In this document: positions 9,950-20,212 of the stretch, piece after piece
Layout of the letters: every line of letters starts with the position of its first letter
Numbering within the stretch: position 1 is the first letter of the stretch
From: a virus
IMG/VR virus record: IMGVR_UViG_3300009128_001359
Span: 1-20,212 of that record
Length of the DNA: 20,212 bases
Reading direction: 5' to 3' (one strand)
The notes under the pieces: model-generated
Told to the model about the DNA's origin: nothing
The model's input: only the letters and a program-made list of their open reading frames with translations
Databases searched by the model: none
Program-made: the position numbers and the translations under genes

Positions 9950-11980
9950 ATGGCAGTTTCATCAACCGCAATTCGAGCCGGACGCGCATTCGTCGAGCTA
10001 TTTGCCGACGACACGAAGCTGGTGCGCGGATTGCGTCGGGCCGAGGCGAAGGTTCGAGCGTTCGGCGACAAGCTCAAGAACATCGGGCGGCGGATGATGG
10101 GGCTGGGACTGATGGCCGCCGCGCCGCTGGCACTCGCCACGAAGGTCTTCGCTGGCTTCGATGACCAGATGCGTGCCGTCCAGGCCGTCATCGGCGCGAC
10201 CGGCAAAGAGTTCGACATGCTCAATGAGAAGGCCAAGATGCTTGGCCGTACCACGTCGTTCTCGGCGGCCCAGGTCGCGGCCGGCATGCTCGAACTGGGC
10301 CGGGCCGGCTTTTCACCCAAGCAGATTGACGCAGCTATTGCCTCGGTGCTCGATCTCTCTCGGGCCACCGGAACCGAACTGCCCGAGGCGTCGAACATCG
10401 CGGCCAGCACGCTCCGTTCATTCGGGATGGAAGCCGACCAGATGGGGCGTGTGGCCGACGTGATGACGGCCACGGCCAACAACTCGGCCCAGACACTCAC
10501 GGACCTGGGCGAGGCGATGAAGTACACCGCCCCGATCGCGGCCGAGTATGGACTCACGCTCGAAGAGACCGCCAAGACGCTCGGCGCACTGGCCAACTAC
10601 GGCATCAAGGGCTCGATGGCCGGCACCACCATGAAGAACATCCTGCTGCGGCTGGCCGATCCGGCGATCCGCTCCCAGGTCGAAGCGCTCGGCGTCTCGG
10701 TTACCGACGCCGGCGGCAACCTCCGCAATGTCTCCGACATCCTCCGCGACGTGGGCCAGGCGGTCAAGGGAATGCCTAATGCCAAGAGACTGGCCATCTT
10801 CAACGAGATCTTCGGCATGCGGGCCATCGCTGGCGGGGCCAAACTGACGGCCGCCGAGTTCGATCGGCTGAACAACGCCATCGACAGCGCGACTGGTACG
10901 GCTGCCAAGACGGCCAAGGTGATGGACAGCGGCATCGGTGGCGCCTTTCGACGCTTGTATTCCGCCGTCGAGGGAATCGCCATCGCCATTGGTGATGCCC
11001 TGGCCAAGCCGCTATCAGACATGGCCGCATGGCTCGGCAAGGCGGCCGGTTCGATCACCGAGTGGATCAAGAACCACAAGCAGCTTGTCGTCACCGCAAT
11101 GAAGGTCATCCTCCTCGTGATGGGAGTCGGCGCGGCCCTGGTGGCCTTGGGATTCACGTTCAGCGCGATGGCAACGGCAATCGGCGGGATCATCTCGGTC
11201 GTCACGGCCGCGATCGCCGTCTTCAAGATCATCGCCGCCGTGATTGCCTTTCTCGTCTCGCCGGTCGGACTGGCGATTGCGGCCATCGCCGCGTTGGGGG
11301 CCTACATCCTCTACGCGACCGGGATCGCTGGCAAGGCGATCGCCTGGCTGGGCGAGAAGTTCAGCGTGCTCAAAGACGACGCGCTGAACGCTTACCAAGG
11401 CATCGCGGATGCATTTGCCGCCGGCGACATCGCCTTGGCAGTCAAGATCCTTTGGTTGACGATCAAGATGGAGTGGACCCGAGGTATAGGCGCCCTCGAA
11501 AAGGCGTGGCTGAACTTCCGCAACTTCTTCATCCGCATCGGATACGACGCCTGGCATGGTCTTCTGGCCGTGGTCGAAACGGTCTGGCACGCCCTGGAGG
11601 TCGGCTGGATCGAGACGACGGCATTCTTCTCGAAAGCCTGGGCGTCCTTCACCGGCTTCTTCGCCAAGACCTGGCAGCGGATCAAGTCTGGCGCGAAGAA
11701 GGCGTGGAACTGGATCAAGAGCCTGTTCGACGATTCGGTCGACCTGGAGGCGGAGAACAAACTCGTCGAGGAGCAGAAGCAGACCGCGCTCAATCAAATC
11801 GACGATGAGCAGCAGCGGACGATTGCCGAGCGCGAGTCGAAAAGACAGGCCGACCGTCAGCGAGCGGGCGCGCTGCACGAAGGTACGATGGCGCAGATCG
11901 GCCAGGGCACACGGACGAGGTCTACCAAAACATGGCCCGCGTGGCGGCCCGATCGATCGTCCGCAAGACACCCGGCGTGA
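9950..11980 (+). CDS. Phage tail tape measure protein, truncated at the 3' end
   Basis: This reading frame gives 676 residues from ATG 9950 (TTG 9947 is possible). The N-terminal half is a TP901-type tape measure core: AFVELFADDTKLVRGLRRAE, KIFAGFDDQM-like segment (KVFAGFDDQMRAVQAVIGAT), FSAAQVAAGMLELGRAGFS, YGIKGSMAGTTMKNILLRLA, NEIFGMRAIAGGAKL. A long hydrophobic block follows (about residues 380-465), then Trp-rich helical repeats and a charged coiled coil (EAENKLVEEQKQTALNQIDD). After residue about 650 (IGQGT) the sequence turns into Arg-, Ser- and Pro-rich text (RTRSTKTWPAWRPDRSSARH) that reads as a wrong frame of the following glycosyltransferase gene. The genuine gene thus ends near 11905 through a deletion. 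Confidence 0.85.
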   Translation: MAVSSTAIRAGRAFVELFADDTKLVRGLRRAEAKVRAFGDKLKNIGRRMMGLGLMAAAPLALATKVFAGFDDQMRAVQAVIGATGKEFDMLNEKAKMLGRTTSFSAAQVAAGMLELGRAGFSPKQIDAAIASVLDLSRATGTELPEASNIAASTLRSFGMEADQMGRVADVMTATANNSAQTLTDLGEAMKYTAPIAAEYGLTLEETAKTLGALANYGIKGSMAGTTMKNILLRLADPAIRSQVEALGVSVTDAGGNLRNVSDILRDVGQAVKGMPNAKRLAIFNEIFGMRAIAGGAKLTAAEFDRLNNAIDSATGTAAKTAKVMDSGIGGAFRRLYSAVEGIAIAIGDALAKPLSDMAAWLGKAAGSITEWIKNHKQLVVTAMKVILLVMGVGAALVALGFTFSAMATAIGGIISVVTAAIAVFKIIAAVIAFLVSPVGLAIAAIAALGAYILYATGIAGKAIAWLGEKFSVLKDDALNAYQGIADAFAAGDIALAVKILWLTIKMEWTRGIGALEKAWLNFRNFFIRIGYDAWHGLLAVVETVWHALEVGWIETTAFFSKAWASFTGFFAKTWQRIKSGAKKAWNWIKSLFDDSVDLEAENKLVEEQKQTALNQIDDEQQRTIAERESKRQADRQRAGALHEGTMAQIGQGTRTRSTKTWPAWRPDRSSARHPA

Positions 11981-12573
11981 CCGTGAAGCTTGTGGCTTGC
12001 GAAGACGTCGGCCACGATCGCAATATGGGCACCCGTTTCGAGGCCTATATCGACGAGTCGGCCGATTGGGTGGTAGCCTGCGACGCCGACGTGCTCTGCT
12101 TCGACGACCTGACGCCCGTCATCGAGCGGGCGGAAACCGAAGGTCGCGATTTCGTTGGACGGATCTCGGGCCGTTACCGCAAGGCGCCAAGAACCCTTCG
12201 CATGGTCGAGTACTGCAACCTCTTCCGGCAGAACAATCTTCCGGAACTGGTCCTGCACGTCCCAAACGTCTTTTTCATCCGTGGTTCATTGTCGCGTCAA
12301 TTGGCCGAATCGGCCAACCGCTGGACCGAGCATCTCCATACGACCAACACGCACGTCCTCGGCCGTCCGCTCTGGTCCGACCAGGTCGGATTCACGCTGG
12401 CCGTAGCAGAACTGCGATTGGCTTCGGAGCGGCTGGGGTTCTTCCGTCCGGCGGAAGTGGCCAATTGGCTCGACGCGCGCCGGATGGATCCGCACCCACG
12501 AATTGTTCACTTCGGCGCCCGCCGGTGGCGACGTTTTTGGAGTCGCGGCAAGATCCTGGGCATGATGCAATGA
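11905..12573 (+). pseudogene. Glycosyltransferase-like gene, 5' end missing
   Basis: The frame carries HTDEVYQNMARVAARSIVRK, beginning upstream of its first ATG (11932), then DESADWVVACDADVLCFDDL with a DxD-type metal-binding motif (DAD) as in GT-A fold glycosyltransferases, then VPNVFFIRGSLSRQLAES and WSDQVGFTLAVAELRLAS. A GT-A enzyme normally has about 60-100 residues of nucleotide-binding Rossmann-like sequence before DxD; here about 55 remain after the junction, and upstream the frame runs into tape measure DNA. No ribosome site precedes ATG 11932. The 213-residue ORF from that ATG could still be translated. In intact phages of this type, such a gene near the tail genes may modify sugars on host or virion. 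The exact family is uncertain. Confidence 0.6.
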
Positions 12574-12872
12574 CGGGCCACCGCCGTGTGGGACCAAACC
12601 TCGTCCAGAAGACCATTTCGGTGGCCACAGCGCTGCTCACCGGCGAGCGAATCTCTGCTGACCGGATTCGCCGCCGAATCGAGATCTGCGCCCGTTGCCG
12701 CTACGTCCGCGCCCGCAAGACCCGACGCGGCGACCGCAAGCTCAACTGCGGCATCTGCGGCTGCCGACTCGGTGGACGCCGCGCGTTGATCAACCTCGCC
12801 CGCTACGAGGAGACGCGCCGGTACGGCTGCAAGCATCCGCGTGGCTCGCGATGGAGAAAGGCGGCGGTGTGA
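12570..12872 (+). CDS. Small Cys-rich zinc-binding-type phage protein
   Basis: This 100-residue protein starts at ATG 12570 overlapping the glycosyltransferase stop (ATGA), so the two are translationally coupled. After an N-terminal helix (NLVQKTISVATALLTG) comes RRRIEICARCRYV, then LNCGICGCRL and finally YGCKHPRGSRW. The order C-x2-C, C-x2-C-x-C and C-x-HP matches a family of small phage-encoded proteins with an IC-x-C start and a GC-P-G-W end, probably binding zinc. Their role is unknown to me. The coupling to the glycosyltransferase suggests they were maintained together. It is the last recognisable prophage gene. Confidence 0.62.
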   Translation: MTGHRRVGPNLVQKTISVATALLTGERISADRIRRRIEICARCRYVRARKTRRGDRKLNCGICGCRLGGRRALINLARYEETRRYGCKHPRGSRWRKAAV

Positions 12873-13098
12873 ATTACGCCTGAGGCGATGCCGCCGATAA
12901 CCAGCACATCCACGCCATCCACTGAAGGCACGCATACGCCTGAAGCGGTGTTGAGGGCGATTCTCGCGAAGGAAAAACTAGCTCTCCAGGAGGGTGCTGC
13001 GCATCGAAGAGCCATGATTGGCTGGCGCTGTACGCTCCTATCTCCTTTACCAGAAGCGACTTACATCTATTTTGAGAAAAATGGATAAAATGACGTGC
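12873..13098. other. Junction between prophage remnant and BREX operon
   Basis: No convincing gene is visible. A 66-codon frame (12888-13088) begins with repetitive Pro, Ser and Thr and then reads HTPEAVLRAILAKEKLALQE, perhaps a fragment of a small helical phage protein, without a ribosome site. The near-identical words ACGCCTGAGGCG (12876-12887) and ACGCCTGAAGCG (12936-12947) are exactly 60 bases apart. The end of the interval becomes AT-rich (13060-13095), leading into the brxA control region. Confidence 0.4.
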
Positions 13099-13122
13099 TT
13101 GGCCGGCAAGTTTGCCGGCCAA
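13099..13122. promoter_or_regulatory. Perfect inverted repeat upstream of brxA, candidate operator
   Basis: TTGGCCGGCAA (13099-13109) and TTGCCGGCCAA (13112-13122) are exact reverse complements separated by GT. The repeat ends five bases before the TATAAT box and covers the -35 region, so a dimeric repressor bound here would block transcription. As RNA it would be a stable hairpin without a following T-run, making it a poor intrinsic terminator for the upstream genes. Confidence 0.6.
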
Positions 13123-13127
13123 TCTGC

Positions 13128-13133
13128 TATAAT
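13128..13133 (+). promoter_or_regulatory. -10 box (TATAAT) of the brxA promoter
   Basis: A perfect TATAAT lies with only six bases between it and the brxA ATG at 13140. RNA polymerase would start at or within a base or two of the A of ATG, giving a leaderless mRNA. There is no ribosome binding site in the gap, which agrees. A consensus -35 box is lacking (the hexamer at 17-18 bases is CGGCAA-like), so an activator or the palindrome-binding protein may modulate it. Confidence 0.65.
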
Positions 13134-13139
13134 TCTGGC

Positions 13140-13937
13140 ATGTCATCAACCATCGCTGAACTAACGGCCCTCGCGAAGATCCCGGAAACCGACTCGGCTG
13201 TGGCCGAGGGTTTTCGTTTTGGGAGCAAGGGCACGCACACGAGCCGCACTTTCATGCTGCGAGAGTTGTCGCAAGTACTGCGAGGGACGCCCGCCGACGC
13301 TGATCGATCAGCGTACTCAGAGGCAATTATCGCAGAGAACCTGGCCGAGAAACGCACTGTCGCAACACGCCGCAGTACGAACCAGCGACTGGGCGAACTT
13401 TATGCTCTCGACCCAAAGACGCTTCTCTTCCGCGTGCTGCGCCAGTTCTGGCCGTCCGACGAGCGGGGGCAGCCGCTTCTTGCGCTGCTTTGTGCCCTGG
13501 CTCGCGATCCGCTTCTGCGAGCGACCGCCCCGACGGTCCTTTCGCTTGGAGTTGGCGAGGAACTGGCGAGACAATCCATGACCGATGCTGTCCGCGACGC
13601 GGTGAGCAATCGTTTGAACGACAGCATCGTCGACAAGGTTGTCAGAAATGCGTCATCAACGTGGGCACAATCTGGGCATCTCACTGGTCGCGTTCGCAAG
13701 ACCCGAGTGGCCCATCAGCCGACTCCGCTGTCGACAGCCTACGCGCTGTTCCTGGGCTATTTGCTGGGAATGCGGGGACATCGACTGTTCGGAACTCTGT
13801 GGACGGAGGTGCTCGATGTCTCCGTCGACGAGTTGATCGGATGTGCGATGGATGCGAAACGACTCGGCGTGATGGATTTCAAGCGTGCCGGTGACGTCAT
13901 TGAGATCGGATTCTCACCGATCTTGCAGAACCGCTAG
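13140..13937 (+). CDS. brxA: BREX protein BrxA (DUF1819)
   Basis: This 265-residue protein opens the operon. It has the DUF1819-type layout: an N-terminal helical segment (HTSRTFMLRELSQVL), SEAIIAENLAEKRTVATRRST followed by the arginine-containing NQRLGELYAL, then LLALLCALARDPLLRATAPTVLSL, and a C-terminal part with AYALFLGYLLGMRGHRLFGTLWTEVLDVS. BrxA proteins are small DNA-binding members of BREX phage-defence systems; their exact task is not settled. It is somewhat longer than the roughly 200 residues I know for well-studied BrxA. The ATG at 13140 is chosen because TATAAT sits immediately upstream (leaderless start); GTG 13095 would lie before the promoter. brxB follows after 14 bases. The order A-B-C-X supports the call. 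Confidence 0.8.
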   Translation: MSSTIAELTALAKIPETDSAVAEGFRFGSKGTHTSRTFMLRELSQVLRGTPADADRSAYSEAIIAENLAEKRTVATRRSTNQRLGELYALDPKTLLFRVLRQFWPSDERGQPLLALLCALARDPLLRATAPTVLSLGVGEELARQSMTDAVRDAVSNRLNDSIVDKVVRNASSTWAQSGHLTGRVRKTRVAHQPTPLSTAYALFLGYLLGMRGHRLFGTLWTEVLDVSVDELIGCAMDAKRLGVMDFKRAGDVIEIGFSPILQNR

Positions 13938-13951
13938 AGCCGGAGGCCCCT

Positions 13952-14512
13952 ATGGGACGGGTTGAAGAAATCGCTGAACGGTATGAACGGCATATTTCTG
14001 CCCCGTGGCAGCGCAACCTTGCCGGCGCGCAGAAGGCCATCTTCGTTGTCTATCGGAAAGAGGACGAACGCAAGCTCCGGGCAAAGCGACGCGAATTTGA
14101 GGTGCGTACCAAAGAAGCGGGGCACAAGTGGCGCGAGCTTGATCTCACACCCCTGTTTCCCCAGTGGATGGCTGACGACGAATACCGTGACGCGTTCTTT
14201 GACTGCCCTGACGATCTCACGATGAAGCTCGAAGGAGAATTCATCGGATATGTAGCAGATCAGTTGCGCGAGGCGCTTACGGCCGATGACGTTGATGAAG
14301 ACACCGTGGTCGGCGTTTTCGGCGCAGCAGCTATCTACGGGTTCGCGCGAGTTTCTCTCGTCCTGAAGAAGGTTGAGGGCGACATTCGTGGCCGCCTCGT
14401 GCTGTTCTTTCCTGGCGACTACGACCAAAACAACTACCGCCTGCTGGACGCCCGAGACGGGTGGAATTACCTCGCAGTGCCAATAACGCTCCATCAAGGA
14501 GAAGACGAATGA
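13952..14512 (+). CDS. brxB: BREX protein BrxB (DUF1788)
   Basis: This 186-residue protein starts at ATG 13952 with GGAGG at 13942-13946. It matches DUF1788: an N-terminal region with YERHISAPWQRN, and a C-terminal half with VGVFGAAAIYGFARVSLVLK, GRLVLFFPGDYDQNNYRLLD and DGWNYLAVPI, a diagnostic combination. BrxB is an essential but mechanistically unassigned component of type 1 BREX and probably works in a complex with BrxC and PglZ. Its stop overlaps the brxC start by four bases (ATGA), so the two are coupled. Full length, no defect visible. Confidence 0.88.
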   Translation: MGRVEEIAERYERHISAPWQRNLAGAQKAIFVVYRKEDERKLRAKRREFEVRTKEAGHKWRELDLTPLFPQWMADDEYRDAFFDCPDDLTMKLEGEFIGYVADQLREALTADDVDEDTVVGVFGAAAIYGFARVSLVLKKVEGDIRGRLVLFFPGDYDQNNYRLLDARDGWNYLAVPITLHQGEDE

Positions 14513-17500
14513 CCAAGAACCGAGATCTTTTTGTTCGCGATCCCGCCGTGGCGGCGCTGATGAACAACGGCCAGGCCCGCATCAACGACGGGATGACCGA
14601 CCAGGAGCGCAAGACACTGCGTGAAGAACTCTCCAATTTCGTGTGTGAGGGCCAATACGCCGATGGCACCTTGCGTATTCTGGAGTCGTTTCTTGGCAGC
14701 CTTGGTGGCACTAGCCAGGCGGCGGCCTGGGTAAGCGGCTTCTATGGCAGCGGCAAGTCACACTTGTTGAAGATGCTATGCCATCTCTGGGTTGACACCG
14801 AGTTCGCCGAAGATGGCGCGCAGGCCAGGAGCCTGGTTCCAGACCTGCCCAACGATGTCGCCGCGGCACTGAAGGAGCTTGACACGCAGGGCCGTCGGCT
14901 GGGTGGGCTGCATGCGGTGTCGGGCACGCTTCCCTCTGGCGGAAGCCAAAGTGTTCGCCTGATCGTGCTGGGCATCGTTCTCCGATCAAAGGGTCTGCCC
15001 GAAAGCTACGCGCAAGCGAAATTCTGCCTGTATCTTAAGCACAACGGTTTCTACGAGCAGGTGAAGTCCGCGATCGAATCCCACGGCAAGGACTTTCTCC
15101 GGGAACTGAATAACCTCTACGTCAGCCCCGTACTACACGATGCGCTGATCGAGGTCGACGCCGGCTACGGCGACCGAAAAGCTGTTCGTGAACTGCTCAA
15201 GCAGGAGTTTCGACAGCCAAACGACATTAGTACTGCCGAAGTGATTTCGATGATGCGAGAAGTGCTGTCAGACGGCGGTCAGCTTCCCTGCACCATCATT
15301 GTGCTCGACGAAGTCCAGCTCTACATCGGTGAAAGCAACGACAGGGCAACCCAGGTCGTAGAAGTCTCGGAAGCGATCTGCAAGCAGTTAGACTCCCGCG
15401 TCATGCTCGTCGGCGCGGGACAGAACGCGCTCGGCGCGCAAACGGCTCAGTTTGGAAAGCTGCGCGATCGATACACGATCCCCGTCGAACTGTCCGACGC
15501 CGATGTCGAGACGGTCACACGCCGCGTGCTTCTCCAGAAGAAGCCCGAGGCGGTCGACGCCATCCGCACGTCGCTCGATGGCCATGCCGGCGAAATCGAG
15601 CGTCAACTGGCCAGCACAGCCATCTGCAGCCGCACTGAAGATCGCGCTGTGCTTGTCGAGGACTACCCACTGCTACCCGTGCGTCGTCGATTCTGGGAGC
15701 ATGTGTTTCGGGCCGTCGATCCCGCCGGCACCAGCGGCATGTTGCGGTCCCAACTCAGGATCATTCACGACGCGCTGCGCAACCTGGCCGAAGAGGCTCT
15801 TGGCACCGTTGTGCCTGCCGACTTCATGTTCGACCAGTTGCAGCCCAACCTCGTTCAGCAGGGTGTTCTCCTGCGCGAACTCGATGAAACCATTCGCAAC
15901 CTCGACGACGGCACCGACGATGGCAGGCTTGCCCGCCGTCTCTGCGGACTGATCTTCCTTATCCGAAAGTTGCCTCGCGATGCTGGCGTCGACATTGGCG
16001 TTCGGGCTACCGAGGCGATGCTGGCCGATCTGATGGTTGGCGACCTGAAAGACGACGGCACGGCGCTCCGCAAGCAAATTCCCGTGGTGCTGGAGCATCT
16101 CGTGGAGAACGGCGTCCTGCTCCGTGACCACGGTGAGTACAACCTGCAGACGAGGGAATACTCCGAGTGGGACAAGGAATTCCGCAATCGGGTCACCCGC
16201 TTCTCCAGTCAGGAACCGGAGATTCACAATAAGCGAGACGCCCTGATTCGTAACGCTGCGCAGGAGGCGGCGAAAGGGGTGAAACTCCAACAGGGTGCGA
16301 GCAAGGAGACACGAAGGCTGGCGATTCACTTTGGCGACGAACCACCCACGGCCGATGGCCATGAAGTCCCGGTTTGGATTCGAGATGGCTGGTCGTGCAG
16401 CGAAAAAAGTGTTGTCGATGCGGCCCGAGCCGCCGGAACCGACAGTCCTATCGTGTTCATTTACGTTCCCAAGGCCAGCGCCGACGATCTGCGCAAGCAA
16501 GTCATCCGCTACGAGGCGGCCAAGGGGACGATCGAATTCAAGGGCGTGCCCAGCACACCCGAGGGCCAAGAGGCCCGCAACGCCATGCAGAGCCGCCAGG
16601 AAGACGCCCAGCGGTTGCGAGATGAGCTTATCGCAAGCGTCATCGACAGCGCCAAAGTATTCAAGGGCGGTGGTGCCGAGCGACACGAACTGACGATCGA
16701 AGAGAAGATCCGCGAGGCCGCCGGCGACGCGCTCGATCGGCTTTTCCCCGACTTCAAGGACGCCGACCACAAGAACTGGTCCGTGGTCATCAGCCGCGCG
16801 AAGAACGGCGACGATTCACCATTGCAAGCCGTCAGCTGGACGGGCCCGGGCGAGCAGCACCCCGTGTGCAAAGAGGTTCTACGCGAAGTCGGCGCGGGGG
16901 CGGATGGACGCAGCATTCGCAAGAAGCTGGCCGACAGCCCCTACGGTTGGCCACAGGACGCCATTGACGGCGCGCTCATCGCTTTGCACGCCTGTGGCCA
17001 TCTTACGGCCCGCCACGGCGGCTCTCCGTTGACCGCCGGGCAGCTTGATCAGGGCAAAGTGGGACGTGCTGAGTTTCGGGTGGAAACGGACACGCTGTCG
17101 GCCCAGCAGAAAATCCAACTTCGCGGCCTCTTCCAGGAAGCCGGCCTGTCCGCCAAGCCAAGTGACGACCTGGGCGACAAGTCGAGCGAGTTCCTCGATA
17201 CGCTCGAGCATCTGGCCGAACACTCCGGAGGCGAGCCGCCACTGCCCCAGCGTCCAAGTGTCGCGCATCTGGCCGATCTCCGCAGCCTGGCCGGCAACGA
17301 ACGGCTCGTGAAGATGCTCGAACAGCAAAAGGAACTGAAGGCAGCAGCCAAGGAGTGGAAAGCGGCCGCCGATCTGGCCGAGAAGCGGAAGCCGCAGTGG
17401 GACAACCTACAGCGATTCGTTCGTCACGGCTCGGGGATGGACGAATTCTCCGAGATTGATTCGGCAGTAGTCGGCATCCGGGGCGACCGGCTCCTGCTCG

Positions 17501-17961
17501 ACCGCACGGACCATGTCACACCGCTCGTCAAGAAAGCGGCCGGCGAACTCCGCACGGCAGTCACGACCGCCCACAAGAGTTTTGAGCAGACACATACCAT
17601 CGAACTCGCCTCCTTGGAAGCCACCGAAGCGTGGCAGAAAATCGAGGCCAACCAGCGAGAGGAAATTCTCCAGAGTGTGGGCATTGGCCCGGTTCCGTCG
17701 ATTTCTGTCGGCGCAGACGCGGATCTTCTCCGCACGCTCGACGCGACGCCGTTGTCGTCGTGGCGTGACAAGACCGACGCGATCCCCAGTCGCTTTGCCA
17801 ATGCGGCCACGAAGGCGGCCAAGCTCCTGGAGCCCAAGTTGCAGAGGGTGCGGCTTACCAGCGGCACGCTGAAGACGGAGGAGGAGGTGCGAGACTGGCT
17901 CGCCGCCAAGGAGACCGAACTTGTCGAGAAACTCAAGGACGGCCCCGTCGTTATCTCGTGA
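14509..17961 (+). CDS. brxC: BREX P-loop ATPase BrxC
   Basis: This 1150-residue protein starts at ATG 14509 with AAGGAG at 14496-14501. Residues 77-84 form the Walker A motif GFYGSGKS, and residues 262-268 the Walker B strand IIVLDEV (D267, E268). The N-terminus (NRDLFVRDPAVAALMNNGQARIND) and the later block SPYGWPQDAIDGALIAL are characteristic of BrxC. The C-terminal third is rich in charged helices and probably coiled. BrxC is the large AAA-like ATPase of BREX, needed for defence and in type 1 also for host DNA methylation. Length is near the usual 1,200. It is followed by pglX after 10 bases. No disruption is visible. Confidence 0.92.
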   Translation: MTKNRDLFVRDPAVAALMNNGQARINDGMTDQERKTLREELSNFVCEGQYADGTLRILESFLGSLGGTSQAAAWVSGFYGSGKSHLLKMLCHLWVDTEFAEDGAQARSLVPDLPNDVAAALKELDTQGRRLGGLHAVSGTLPSGGSQSVRLIVLGIVLRSKGLPESYAQAKFCLYLKHNGFYEQVKSAIESHGKDFLRELNNLYVSPVLHDALIEVDAGYGDRKAVRELLKQEFRQPNDISTAEVISMMREVLSDGGQLPCTIIVLDEVQLYIGESNDRATQVVEVSEAICKQLDSRVMLVGAGQNALGAQTAQFGKLRDRYTIPVELSDADVETVTRRVLLQKKPEAVDAIRTSLDGHAGEIERQLASTAICSRTEDRAVLVEDYPLLPVRRRFWEHVFRAVDPAGTSGMLRSQLRIIHDALRNLAEEALGTVVPADFMFDQLQPNLVQQGVLLRELDETIRNLDDGTDDGRLARRLCGLIFLIRKLPRDAGVDIGVRATEAMLADLMVGDLKDDGTALRKQIPVVLEHLVENGVLLRDHGEYNLQTREYSEWDKEFRNRVTRFSSQEPEIHNKRDALIRNAAQEAAKGVKLQQGASKETRRLAIHFGDEPPTADGHEVPVWIRDGWSCSEKSVVDAARAAGTDSPIVFIYVPKASADDLRKQVIRYEAAKGTIEFKGVPSTPEGQEARNAMQSRQEDAQRLRDELIASVIDSAKVFKGGGAERHELTIEEKIREAAGDALDRLFPDFKDADHKNWSVVISRAKNGDDSPLQAVSWTGPGEQHPVCKEVLREVGAGADGRSIRKKLADSPYGWPQDAIDGALIALHACGHLTARHGGSPLTAGQLDQGKVGRAEFRVETDTLSAQQKIQLRGLFQEAGLSAKPSDDLGDKSSEFLDTLEHLAEHSGGEPPLPQRPSVAHLADLRSLAGNERLVKMLEQQKELKAAAKEWKAAADLAEKRKPQWDNLQRFVRHGSGMDEFSEIDSAVVGIRGDRLLLDRTDHVTPLVKKAAGELRTAVTTAHKSFEQTHTIELASLEATEAWQKIEANQREEILQSVGIGPVPSISVGADADLLRTLDATPLSSWRDKTDAIPSRFANAATKAAKLLEPKLQRVRLTSGTLKTEEEVRDWLAAKETELVEKLKDGPVVIS

Positions 17962-17971
17962 GGAACCACTC

Positions 17972-20140
17972 ATGCCACCACTTCCAAGCAACCTCCGGCG
18001 CGATCTCGAACGCGCGATCATCAAGGCCCGCGACGTGGCCGAAGCCGGGGCCCGTGCCGCGCTGGAGGCGCTCACGATCCATGAAGGCAAGGTCGGCGGG
18101 CACTTGACCGGCGATCAGCGGACGCTCCGTAATCGGCTCCGCGCACACGCTCGGCAGCTTGGCGACAACCGGAACAGCCGGTCGGGCGCCCAGGCGATCG
18201 ACCGGCTGATGCGTGAATGCGCCTACGAACATTGGCACCGCATGATCTTCGCCCGATTCCTGGCCGAGAATGACCTTTTGGTGGAGCCCGAATCGGGCGT
18301 TTCGGTCACACTCGATGAGGTCGAGGAGCTTGCCCGCGATGCAAAGGCCGACCCTTGGGACTTGGCCAGTCGGTACGCCCAGCGAATGCTCCCGCAGATC
18401 TTTCGCCCCGACGATCCGCTGCTTGCGGTTGCACTTCCCACGGAGACCCGGGTGGAGCTCGAATCCCTTCTTGAATCGCTGCCGACCGAGACCTTTGGGG
18501 GCGACGACAGCTTGGGTTGGGTCTATCAATTCTGGCAGAGCAAGCGGAAGGACGAGGTCAACGACTCAGGCGAGAAGATCACCGGCGATACGCTGCCGGC
18601 AGTGACGCAGCTCTTCACCGAGCACTACATGGTGCTCTTCCTGCTGCACAACACGATGGGCGCGTGGCACGCCGGTAGGGTGCTTGCCCAGCGGCCCAAG
18701 CTTGCCAAGACGGCTGGGAGCGAACAAGAGCTGCGCAACGCGGTTGCGCTGTCCCAGGCCGACGGCTACTCGTTTGAGTACCTCCGCTTCGTTCGTGACC
18801 CGGTGGAAGGTGACGCGGATAATGCACCAACTGGCCCCTGGCGACCGGCAGCCGGGACATTCGACGGCTGGCCGAAGGAGGCGATAGACCTGAAGGTGCT
18901 CGACCCCTGCTGCGGGTCTGGGCATTTCTTGGTCGCCGTTTTCGAGCTGCTTACGCGTCTGCGGATGGACGAAGAAGGCTTGTCTGTCGAGGAGGCCTCG
19001 CGGGCCGTGTTGCGTGACAACGTTTTCGGTCTGGAGGTTGATCAGCGCTGTACGCAGATCGCCGCGTTCGCCCTGGCATTCGCCGTTTGGAAGATGACTG
19101 GCCGGGTGATTGACCTGCCCTCACTCAATATCGCCTGTTGCGGTATCGGCCCGTCGGCGACGCTTGATGAGTGGCTCACGCTCGCCGAGCAGGCCGAGCA
19201 CACTTTGCCGGCCCACGCCCGCGAGCCGGTCTGCAACGGGCTGGAGAATCTCCACCGCTTGTTCTCGCAGGCATCGGAACTCGGCTCACTGATCGACCCC
19301 TCCGAATTGCCCTCCGACATGTTTGCCGCCGACTACGAGACACTTCAGCCGTTCCTGGAAGAAGTCTTCCAACGTGAATCGGCAGACGCCGAGGCCCGTG
19401 AGCTGGCCGTTGCCGCGCAAGGGATGGTTCGGGCATCGGAACTGCTTGCTGGAGAGTATCATTTGGTCATCACGAACGTGCCGTACTTAGCACGCGGCAA
19501 GCAGGACGAGTTGATTCAGCGATTCTGCGAGGCAAACTTCCGCAAGGCGAAAACGGATTTAGCGACTGTCTTCCTTCTCCGAATGTTTGGCCTGCTGGAT
19601 TCCGAAGGGGTCTGTGCGATTGTCATTACGCAGAACTGGCGGTTTCAACCTACTTATTCCTCCCTGAGGAAATCGGTGCTGTCGAGCAAGACCCTCAATT
19701 TCGTCGGAGCCCTAGGTCCACGGGCTTTTGAGACTATCACCGGAGAAGTTGTGAACGTCGGGTTATTCGTGCATTCTGCGGTACGTCCAACAGAGCCGCA
19801 CGCGATTTCGTTCATTGAGGCTTCCGCAGAACCGAACTCCACAGAGAAGATGCGCGCGTTACGTGAAAGACCCGTGAGTCGGGTGTCGCAACGTAGCCAG
19901 CGCGATAATCCGGATCATGTAATCTCGCTTCATTCTTCTGATGGTGAAGAGCTCTTAGGGAACCGGGCGTCGAGCTACCAAGGCATTAAGACTGGTGATG
20001 ACGGAAGATATAAGAGGAAGTTCTGGGAGGTGGCTGGGCCGGAACCAGGCTGGCGGCTGATGCAAAGCACTGTCGAGGAATCTTGTGAGTACGGCGGGCT
20101 AGTGCCGTGTCAACATTTGATTCTTGGGTTCAGGCTATGA
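17972..20140 (+). CDS. pglX: BREX adenine methyltransferase PglX, 3' part missing
   Basis: The start is ATG 17972 with TGAGGA at 17959-17964. Motif I of the adenine-specific DNA methyltransferase is VLDPCCGSGHF (D311), followed by NVFGLEVDQRCTQIAAFAL. The catalytic motif IV is TNVPY (N502-Y505), where most relatives have NPPY. PglX marks host DNA at a non-palindromic site so that BREX spares it. The frame ends after 722 residues, against about 1,200 for intact proteins. After YGIKTGDD-type sequence (YQGIKTGDDGRYKRKFWE) and EYGG the text becomes LVPCQHLILGFRL, which I take as readthrough into an inserted element. The C-terminal specificity region would be lost. The last 600 bases are less GC-rich than the rest. 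Confidence 0.85.
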   Translation: MPPLPSNLRRDLERAIIKARDVAEAGARAALEALTIHEGKVGGHLTGDQRTLRNRLRAHARQLGDNRNSRSGAQAIDRLMRECAYEHWHRMIFARFLAENDLLVEPESGVSVTLDEVEELARDAKADPWDLASRYAQRMLPQIFRPDDPLLAVALPTETRVELESLLESLPTETFGGDDSLGWVYQFWQSKRKDEVNDSGEKITGDTLPAVTQLFTEHYMVLFLLHNTMGAWHAGRVLAQRPKLAKTAGSEQELRNAVALSQADGYSFEYLRFVRDPVEGDADNAPTGPWRPAAGTFDGWPKEAIDLKVLDPCCGSGHFLVAVFELLTRLRMDEEGLSVEEASRAVLRDNVFGLEVDQRCTQIAAFALAFAVWKMTGRVIDLPSLNIACCGIGPSATLDEWLTLAEQAEHTLPAHAREPVCNGLENLHRLFSQASELGSLIDPSELPSDMFAADYETLQPFLEEVFQRESADAEARELAVAAQGMVRASELLAGEYHLVITNVPYLARGKQDELIQRFCEANFRKAKTDLATVFLLRMFGLLDSEGVCAIVITQNWRFQPTYSSLRKSVLSSKTLNFVGALGPRAFETITGEVVNVGLFVHSAVRPTEPHAISFIEASAEPNSTEKMRALRERPVSRVSQRSQRDNPDHVISLHSSDGEELLGNRASSYQGIKTGDDGRYKRKFWEVAGPEPGWRLMQSTVEESCEYGGLVPCQHLILGFRL

Positions 20141-20212
20141 AACTGGGTGCCACTGCTGGCTTGTCCAGCAGTGCCTCGAAGCGTCTCGCCGGATTGCACT
20201 GCTGGACAAGCC
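20097..20212. mobile_element. Left end of a putative inserted element interrupting pglX
   Basis: pglX-like coding sequence appears to stop near 20097. The following DNA (starting GGGCTAGTGCCGTGTC) has no coding similarity I can recognise and quickly enters inverted repeats of a type I recall as abundant in planctomycete genomes. The right boundary and any transposase lie beyond the window, so it could be an insertion sequence, a small non-autonomous element or a repeat cluster left after deletion. Confidence 0.5.
20151..20212. repeat. Nested inverted repeats with CACTGCTGG core
   Basis: CACTGCTGG (20151-20159) and CCAGCAGTG (20165-20173) form a 9-bp hairpin with loop CTTGT. In addition GGCTTGTCCAGCAGTGC (20158-20174) is a perfect 17-bp reverse complement of 20196-20212, with 21 bases between, and the second arm reaches the window edge and may continue. 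Two alternative hairpins can therefore form. The pattern resembles REP-type or transposon-end repeats. Confidence 0.85.

Follow-up and report, generated by a model that had tools for sequence, protein, structure and literature searches.

This locus raises the question of why a BREX methyltransferase gene, pglX, ends early at the edge of a virus record, and whether it is broken or switchable, both of which a preliminary description of the DNA had proposed. The window, that is, the whole stretch analysed, is the complete virus record of 20,212 bases, a single contig without companion contigs. Phage head and tail genes (terminase, portal, head decoration, major tail and tape measure) fill it from position 1 to ~12,870, and from 13,095 PADLOC identifies brxA, brxB, brxC and pglX, in that order and on one shared strand:

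13095..13937, forward strand: brxA frame, likely start ATG 13141; PADLOC BrxA 6e-96; 5' of brxB in relatives
13952..14512, forward strand: brxB; PADLOC BrxB 5e-77, Pfam BrxB
14506..17961, forward strand: brxC (AAA ATPase), full length and stop-free; PADLOC BrxC E=0, profile positions 2-1145 of 1146
17972..20140, forward strand: pglX 5' part; PADLOC PglX 6e-262, profile positions 2-687 of 1125

This is the order of type I BREX, and it is also the usual one among the loci compared, 80 bacterial and 9 viral, that carry a related pglX. Since pglZ and brxL additionally lie 3' of pglX in the relatives L008 and L013, the window is read as carrying the beginning of a type I BREX operon, with the nearest BREX loci pointing to a host in the phylum Planctomycetota. 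In the same two relatives, accessory genes matching the PADLOC families HEC-01 and AbiU occupy the interval between pglX and pglZ (L008:13741-15578 and L013:13498-15192). The transition from phage genes to brxA spans 12870-13140, with an inverted repeat, TTGGCCGGCAAGTTTGCCGGCCAA, near 13100.

The phage side of the record appears to be incomplete. Relative to its nearest phage relative, L227, the window is missing ~4.2 kb (L227 11960-16186) at 11906-11923: homology of the tape measure to L227 stops at 11906 and the next gene begins at 11923, leaving the tape-measure gene short of its last ~130 residues and several following genes missing. Either a decaying prophage has lost this DNA or the assembly was joined here, and the record may thus be a decaying prophage beside host DNA. 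The idea that phages of this family carry BREX as common cargo was considered and rejected, as no brx genes occur in 117 related terminase and tape-measure loci and no genes of this phage were found beside BREX in the other BREX loci examined. The absence of brx genes from related phage loci suggests that BREX here may be host DNA adjoining the prophage.

The pglX frame runs from ATG 17972 to TGA 20138-20140 and encodes 722 residues, comprising a helical bundle, the methyltransferase domain, the start of the target-recognition domain and ~12 element-encoded codons before the TGA. Both catalytic motifs named in the preliminary description are intact, motif I (DPCCGSGHF) at nt 18902 and motif IV (TNVPY) at nt 19472, NVPY being the usual form in this PglX subfamily. 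The full set of target-recognition and C-terminal regions is not reached, the frame stopping at 722 of ~1,130 residues. Since 78 of the 89 PglX relatives have at least 1,056 residues (most 1,056-1,241, typically ~1,130 aa), the frame stops ~400-450 residues early, in agreement with the ~450 first proposed. Most of the remaining 11 relatives run off the end of their contigs; pglX of L023 terminates in what looks like sequencing-adapter sequence, and L011 carries a frameshift late in the gene. An early stop initially noted in L037 was an artefact of the analysis and was discarded. In L067 (Nitrospirota), PglX homology is lost at about residue 780-790, near 12370-12461, and is followed by unrelated DNA to the contig end. 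An exact search for other virus contigs across this part of pglX found none.

These lengths bear directly on whether this PglX subfamily might naturally end near residue 720, which the preliminary description had named as one of two findings that would overturn its reading. In such a case, specificity could reside in a separate subunit encoded downstream. The PADLOC PglX profile PDLC02535, with only 731 positions, is compatible with such a short form. Nevertheless, the closest relatives (L006, L008 and L013; 53-61% identical to the window PglX) are 1,164-1,241 aa long in a single frame and are followed by pglZ- and brxL-like genes, and the last 12 residues of the window frame are encoded by transposon sequence, so that a naturally short protein is almost certainly not what is seen here.

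Homology to most relatives is lost at residue 709/710 (Gly709; nt 20098/20101), and the end of a mobile element begins at nt 20100, no more than 2 bases from that point, which upholds the earlier proposal that an element interrupts the gene. The junction reads C|TA|GTGCCGTGTCAAC, and the sequence starting at 20100 is TAGTGCCGTGTCAAC. The features of this terminal region are the following:

20099..20101, forward strand: codon 710 (CTA); PglX homology ends at 709/710
20100-20101, forward strand: TA, left copy of the expected target duplication; in relatives, C|TA and TA|G border most of the elements
20100..20212, forward strand: putative IS630-type MITE, left 113 bp up to the contig end; matches complete Pirellulales copies
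20100..20113, forward strand: left terminal inverted repeat TAGTGCCGTGTCAA, like the ends of 1.22-1.245 kb DDE_3 elements
20145..20174, forward strand: first REP-like hairpin unit GGGTGCCACTGCTGGCTTGTCCAGCAGTGC; found in Pirellulales-type genomes in the search with the terminal 123 bp
20196..20212, reverse strand: second hairpin unit, inverted and incomplete at the contig end; 17-bp perfect pair with 20158-20174

The window contains the terminal-repeat pattern TAGTGCNNNGTCAA a single time, against an expectation of zero by chance. The last 113 nt fold more stably than shuffled sequences (z = -4.4), and the visible 113 bp of the element hold no coding frame. The first description of this DNA as full of inverted repeats requires narrowing: 19440-20099 is ordinary pglX sequence, and the only perfect inverted pair in 19400-20212 (17 bp, 20158-20174 with 20196-20212) sits, together with the hairpin unit, inside the last 113 bp, the other pairs being short and imperfect. 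No match was returned by an RNA family search on the window, by a promoter and terminator search in the last 313 bp, or by a plasmid search with the terminal 153 bp. The exact 21-base element end was absent from the virus contigs searched, and the 28-base hairpin by itself occurs in four of them.

A search of the last 123 bases against 397 genomes from the order that includes Botrimarina hoheduenensis, which we take to be Pirellulales, matched 104 of them, nearly all through the hairpin region; in G240 the match begins at query position 10, corresponding to window base 20099. The combined pattern of element end plus hairpin was present in 8 of 394 genomes and in none of the reversed controls. 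The relatives' loci yielded 17 distinct elements that are complete and 92-152 bp long, with both ends (at most 1 mismatch each), TA at both termini, mostly within CTAG, and one or two hairpins inside. The hairpin of the window is present in 12 of these 17, the other 5 carrying a different hairpin in the same setting, and complete elements with both ends and one or two of the window's hairpins occur in G023, G225, G240, G377 and G188. The window aligns to two G240 copies from the first base of the element to the contig end, and these copies extend ~40 bp past that point. The most plausible identity of the window insert is therefore an IS630-type MITE bearing REP-like hairpins, for which a TA target duplication and a total length near 150 bp would be expected. 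It is seen from its left side, the record ending inside it, so that the expected right terminal repeat, second TA and 3' part of pglX would fall past the contig end. The same matches point to a host within Pirellulales.

The assignment to the IS630 type comes from four elements of 1,220-1,245 bp (in G377, G123 and G225) that enclose DDE_3 transposase domains and whose ends (TAGTGC-TTT-GTCAC and variants) are similar to those of the MITEs. This resemblance could also mean that pglX received a complete IS630 element or some larger composite, of which only the first 113 bp are seen. Such an insertion is quite improbable: all copies with paired ends and the hairpin near an end measure 92-152 bp, the window aligns along them including the second hairpin, and the ends of the transposase-bearing elements are devoid of the hairpin. 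In L187, L201, L222 and L224 the same terminal repeats flank another hairpin core (CATGCCCACG...), so the core seems to be exchangeable. A candidate element inside a gene of L152 was dropped, as the long frame around it did not look clearly gene-like by eye.

The position of the insert at the very end of the record calls for caution, since only 113 bp separate the join from the contig end, the sequence there is a multi-copy repeat, and joins are least reliable at contig edges. An assembler could have linked pglX to a repeat from elsewhere, or the insert could represent a variant of a minority strain. In this respect, the adapter-like end of L023 and the unrelated DNA in L067 likewise lie at the edges of contigs, within or beyond this region of pglX, and a further junction may be present near 11906, among the phage genes of the window. 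On the contrary, repeat-driven joins arise inside shared k-mers, while here pglX switches exactly at a transposon terminus, at CTAG as in most other copies of the element, and the widely shared hairpin begins only 45 bp after the join. Thus, an edge artefact is considered unlikely.

The preferred explanation, to which we attach good confidence, is that a short non-autonomous MITE broke pglX in a recent loss-of-function insertion into an otherwise intact operon. An element of IS630/Tc1-mariner type with a REP-like hairpin doublet core would have inserted at CTAG at pglX codon 710, and translation would then enter the element for ~12 codons before reaching a stop. The product would retain the SAM-binding and catalytic methyltransferase domain, but most of the target-recognition domain would be missing, as would the spacer helices and the C-terminal region. 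In an alignment with Salmonella PglX (PDB 8c45), residue 688 of the window protein pairs with residue 702, which lies in a target-recognition domain covering 662-849; spacers and a C-terminal region follow that domain, and the N-terminal domain of the Salmonella protein showed no DNA binding by itself (PMC11341690). Deletion of brxX in E. coli, in turn, abolishes both protection and modification (PMC6326788). By analogy with these studied type I systems, the truncated protein would have neither DNA-binding nor methylation activity and would not sustain exclusion. Given that the cut falls inside the target-recognition domain, truncated PglX is thus most likely inactive and this BREX copy dead, bearing in mind that the studied systems are proteobacterial. 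Methylation and exclusion being lost together, the insertion is probably tolerated by the host. In addition, the reading frames of brxA, brxB and brxC remain uninterrupted and can be aligned over their length, pointing to a recent event. As two of the loci compared (L077 and L080) contain two pglX genes within one BREX locus each, a second copy could exist elsewhere here and rescue the system.

Regarding the alternative that the gene is switchable, excision of the element would restore pglX and make BREX phase-variable. Phase variation is described as common in pglX, unlike in other BREX genes (PMC11341690), and possible transposase sources are present in related genomes. However, neither an excised form nor a right junction is visible in the single-contig record, no further copy of the element repeat, inverted or otherwise, occurs elsewhere in pglX, the visible part of the element lacks a transposase gene, and no inverted repeats flanking an invertible pglX segment were found in 19400-20212. 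Excision of the Tc1/mariner type usually leaves a footprint, so that restoration of pglX would be inefficient. Reversible switching is accordingly very unlikely, and of the two states first suggested, the broken one is favoured. A wider scenario, in which Pirellulales IS630-type MITEs spread REP-like hairpins and repeatedly switch defence genes, pglX among them, off, and on again where a related IS630 transposase is active, is put forward purely as speculation and with still less expectation of being right. For the window itself, the early stop within repeats is resolved to base level, as a mobile element of a recognizable class within the recognition domain of a BREX methyltransferase. This cautions that BREX calls on virus contigs may describe broken systems.

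The window agrees with the type I BREX systems of E. coli HS and Salmonella StySA in the order and the family matches of its first four genes. Its relatives have pglZ and brxL further along the locus, in some cases with intervening accessory genes like those of Salmonella, whereas in the window pglX is truncated and the contig stops before the positions of pglZ and brxL. Interrupted pglX is already known: a truncated gene is reported in Ca. Regnicoccus frigidus and in others cited there (PMC9716671), where pglX is likewise the broken BREX gene and its neighbours are kept, the difference being that in the window the interruption can be traced to a recognizable mobile element whose boundary is placed to the base. 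Both IS630-derived MITEs and REP repeats have been described before, Correia and RUP being named among the former (PMC2817692). The window element resembles these MITEs in its IS630-like terminal repeat (left end) and the TA at that terminus, and its complete relatives are likewise short and free of a transposase gene; the family differs in having as a core a REP-like hairpin or inverted doublet that is also found solitary in many Pirellulales genomes. With REP/BIME sequences, which are associated with tyrosine transposases, it shares short dispersed palindromes, often as inverted doublets, but its hairpins lie inside an IS630-type element and no GTAG or CGTC tag is seen. A MITE family with REP-like cores seems to be undescribed, no paper on one having been found among the open-licence papers searched, and it offers a testable link between two classes of short repeats that are usually treated separately.
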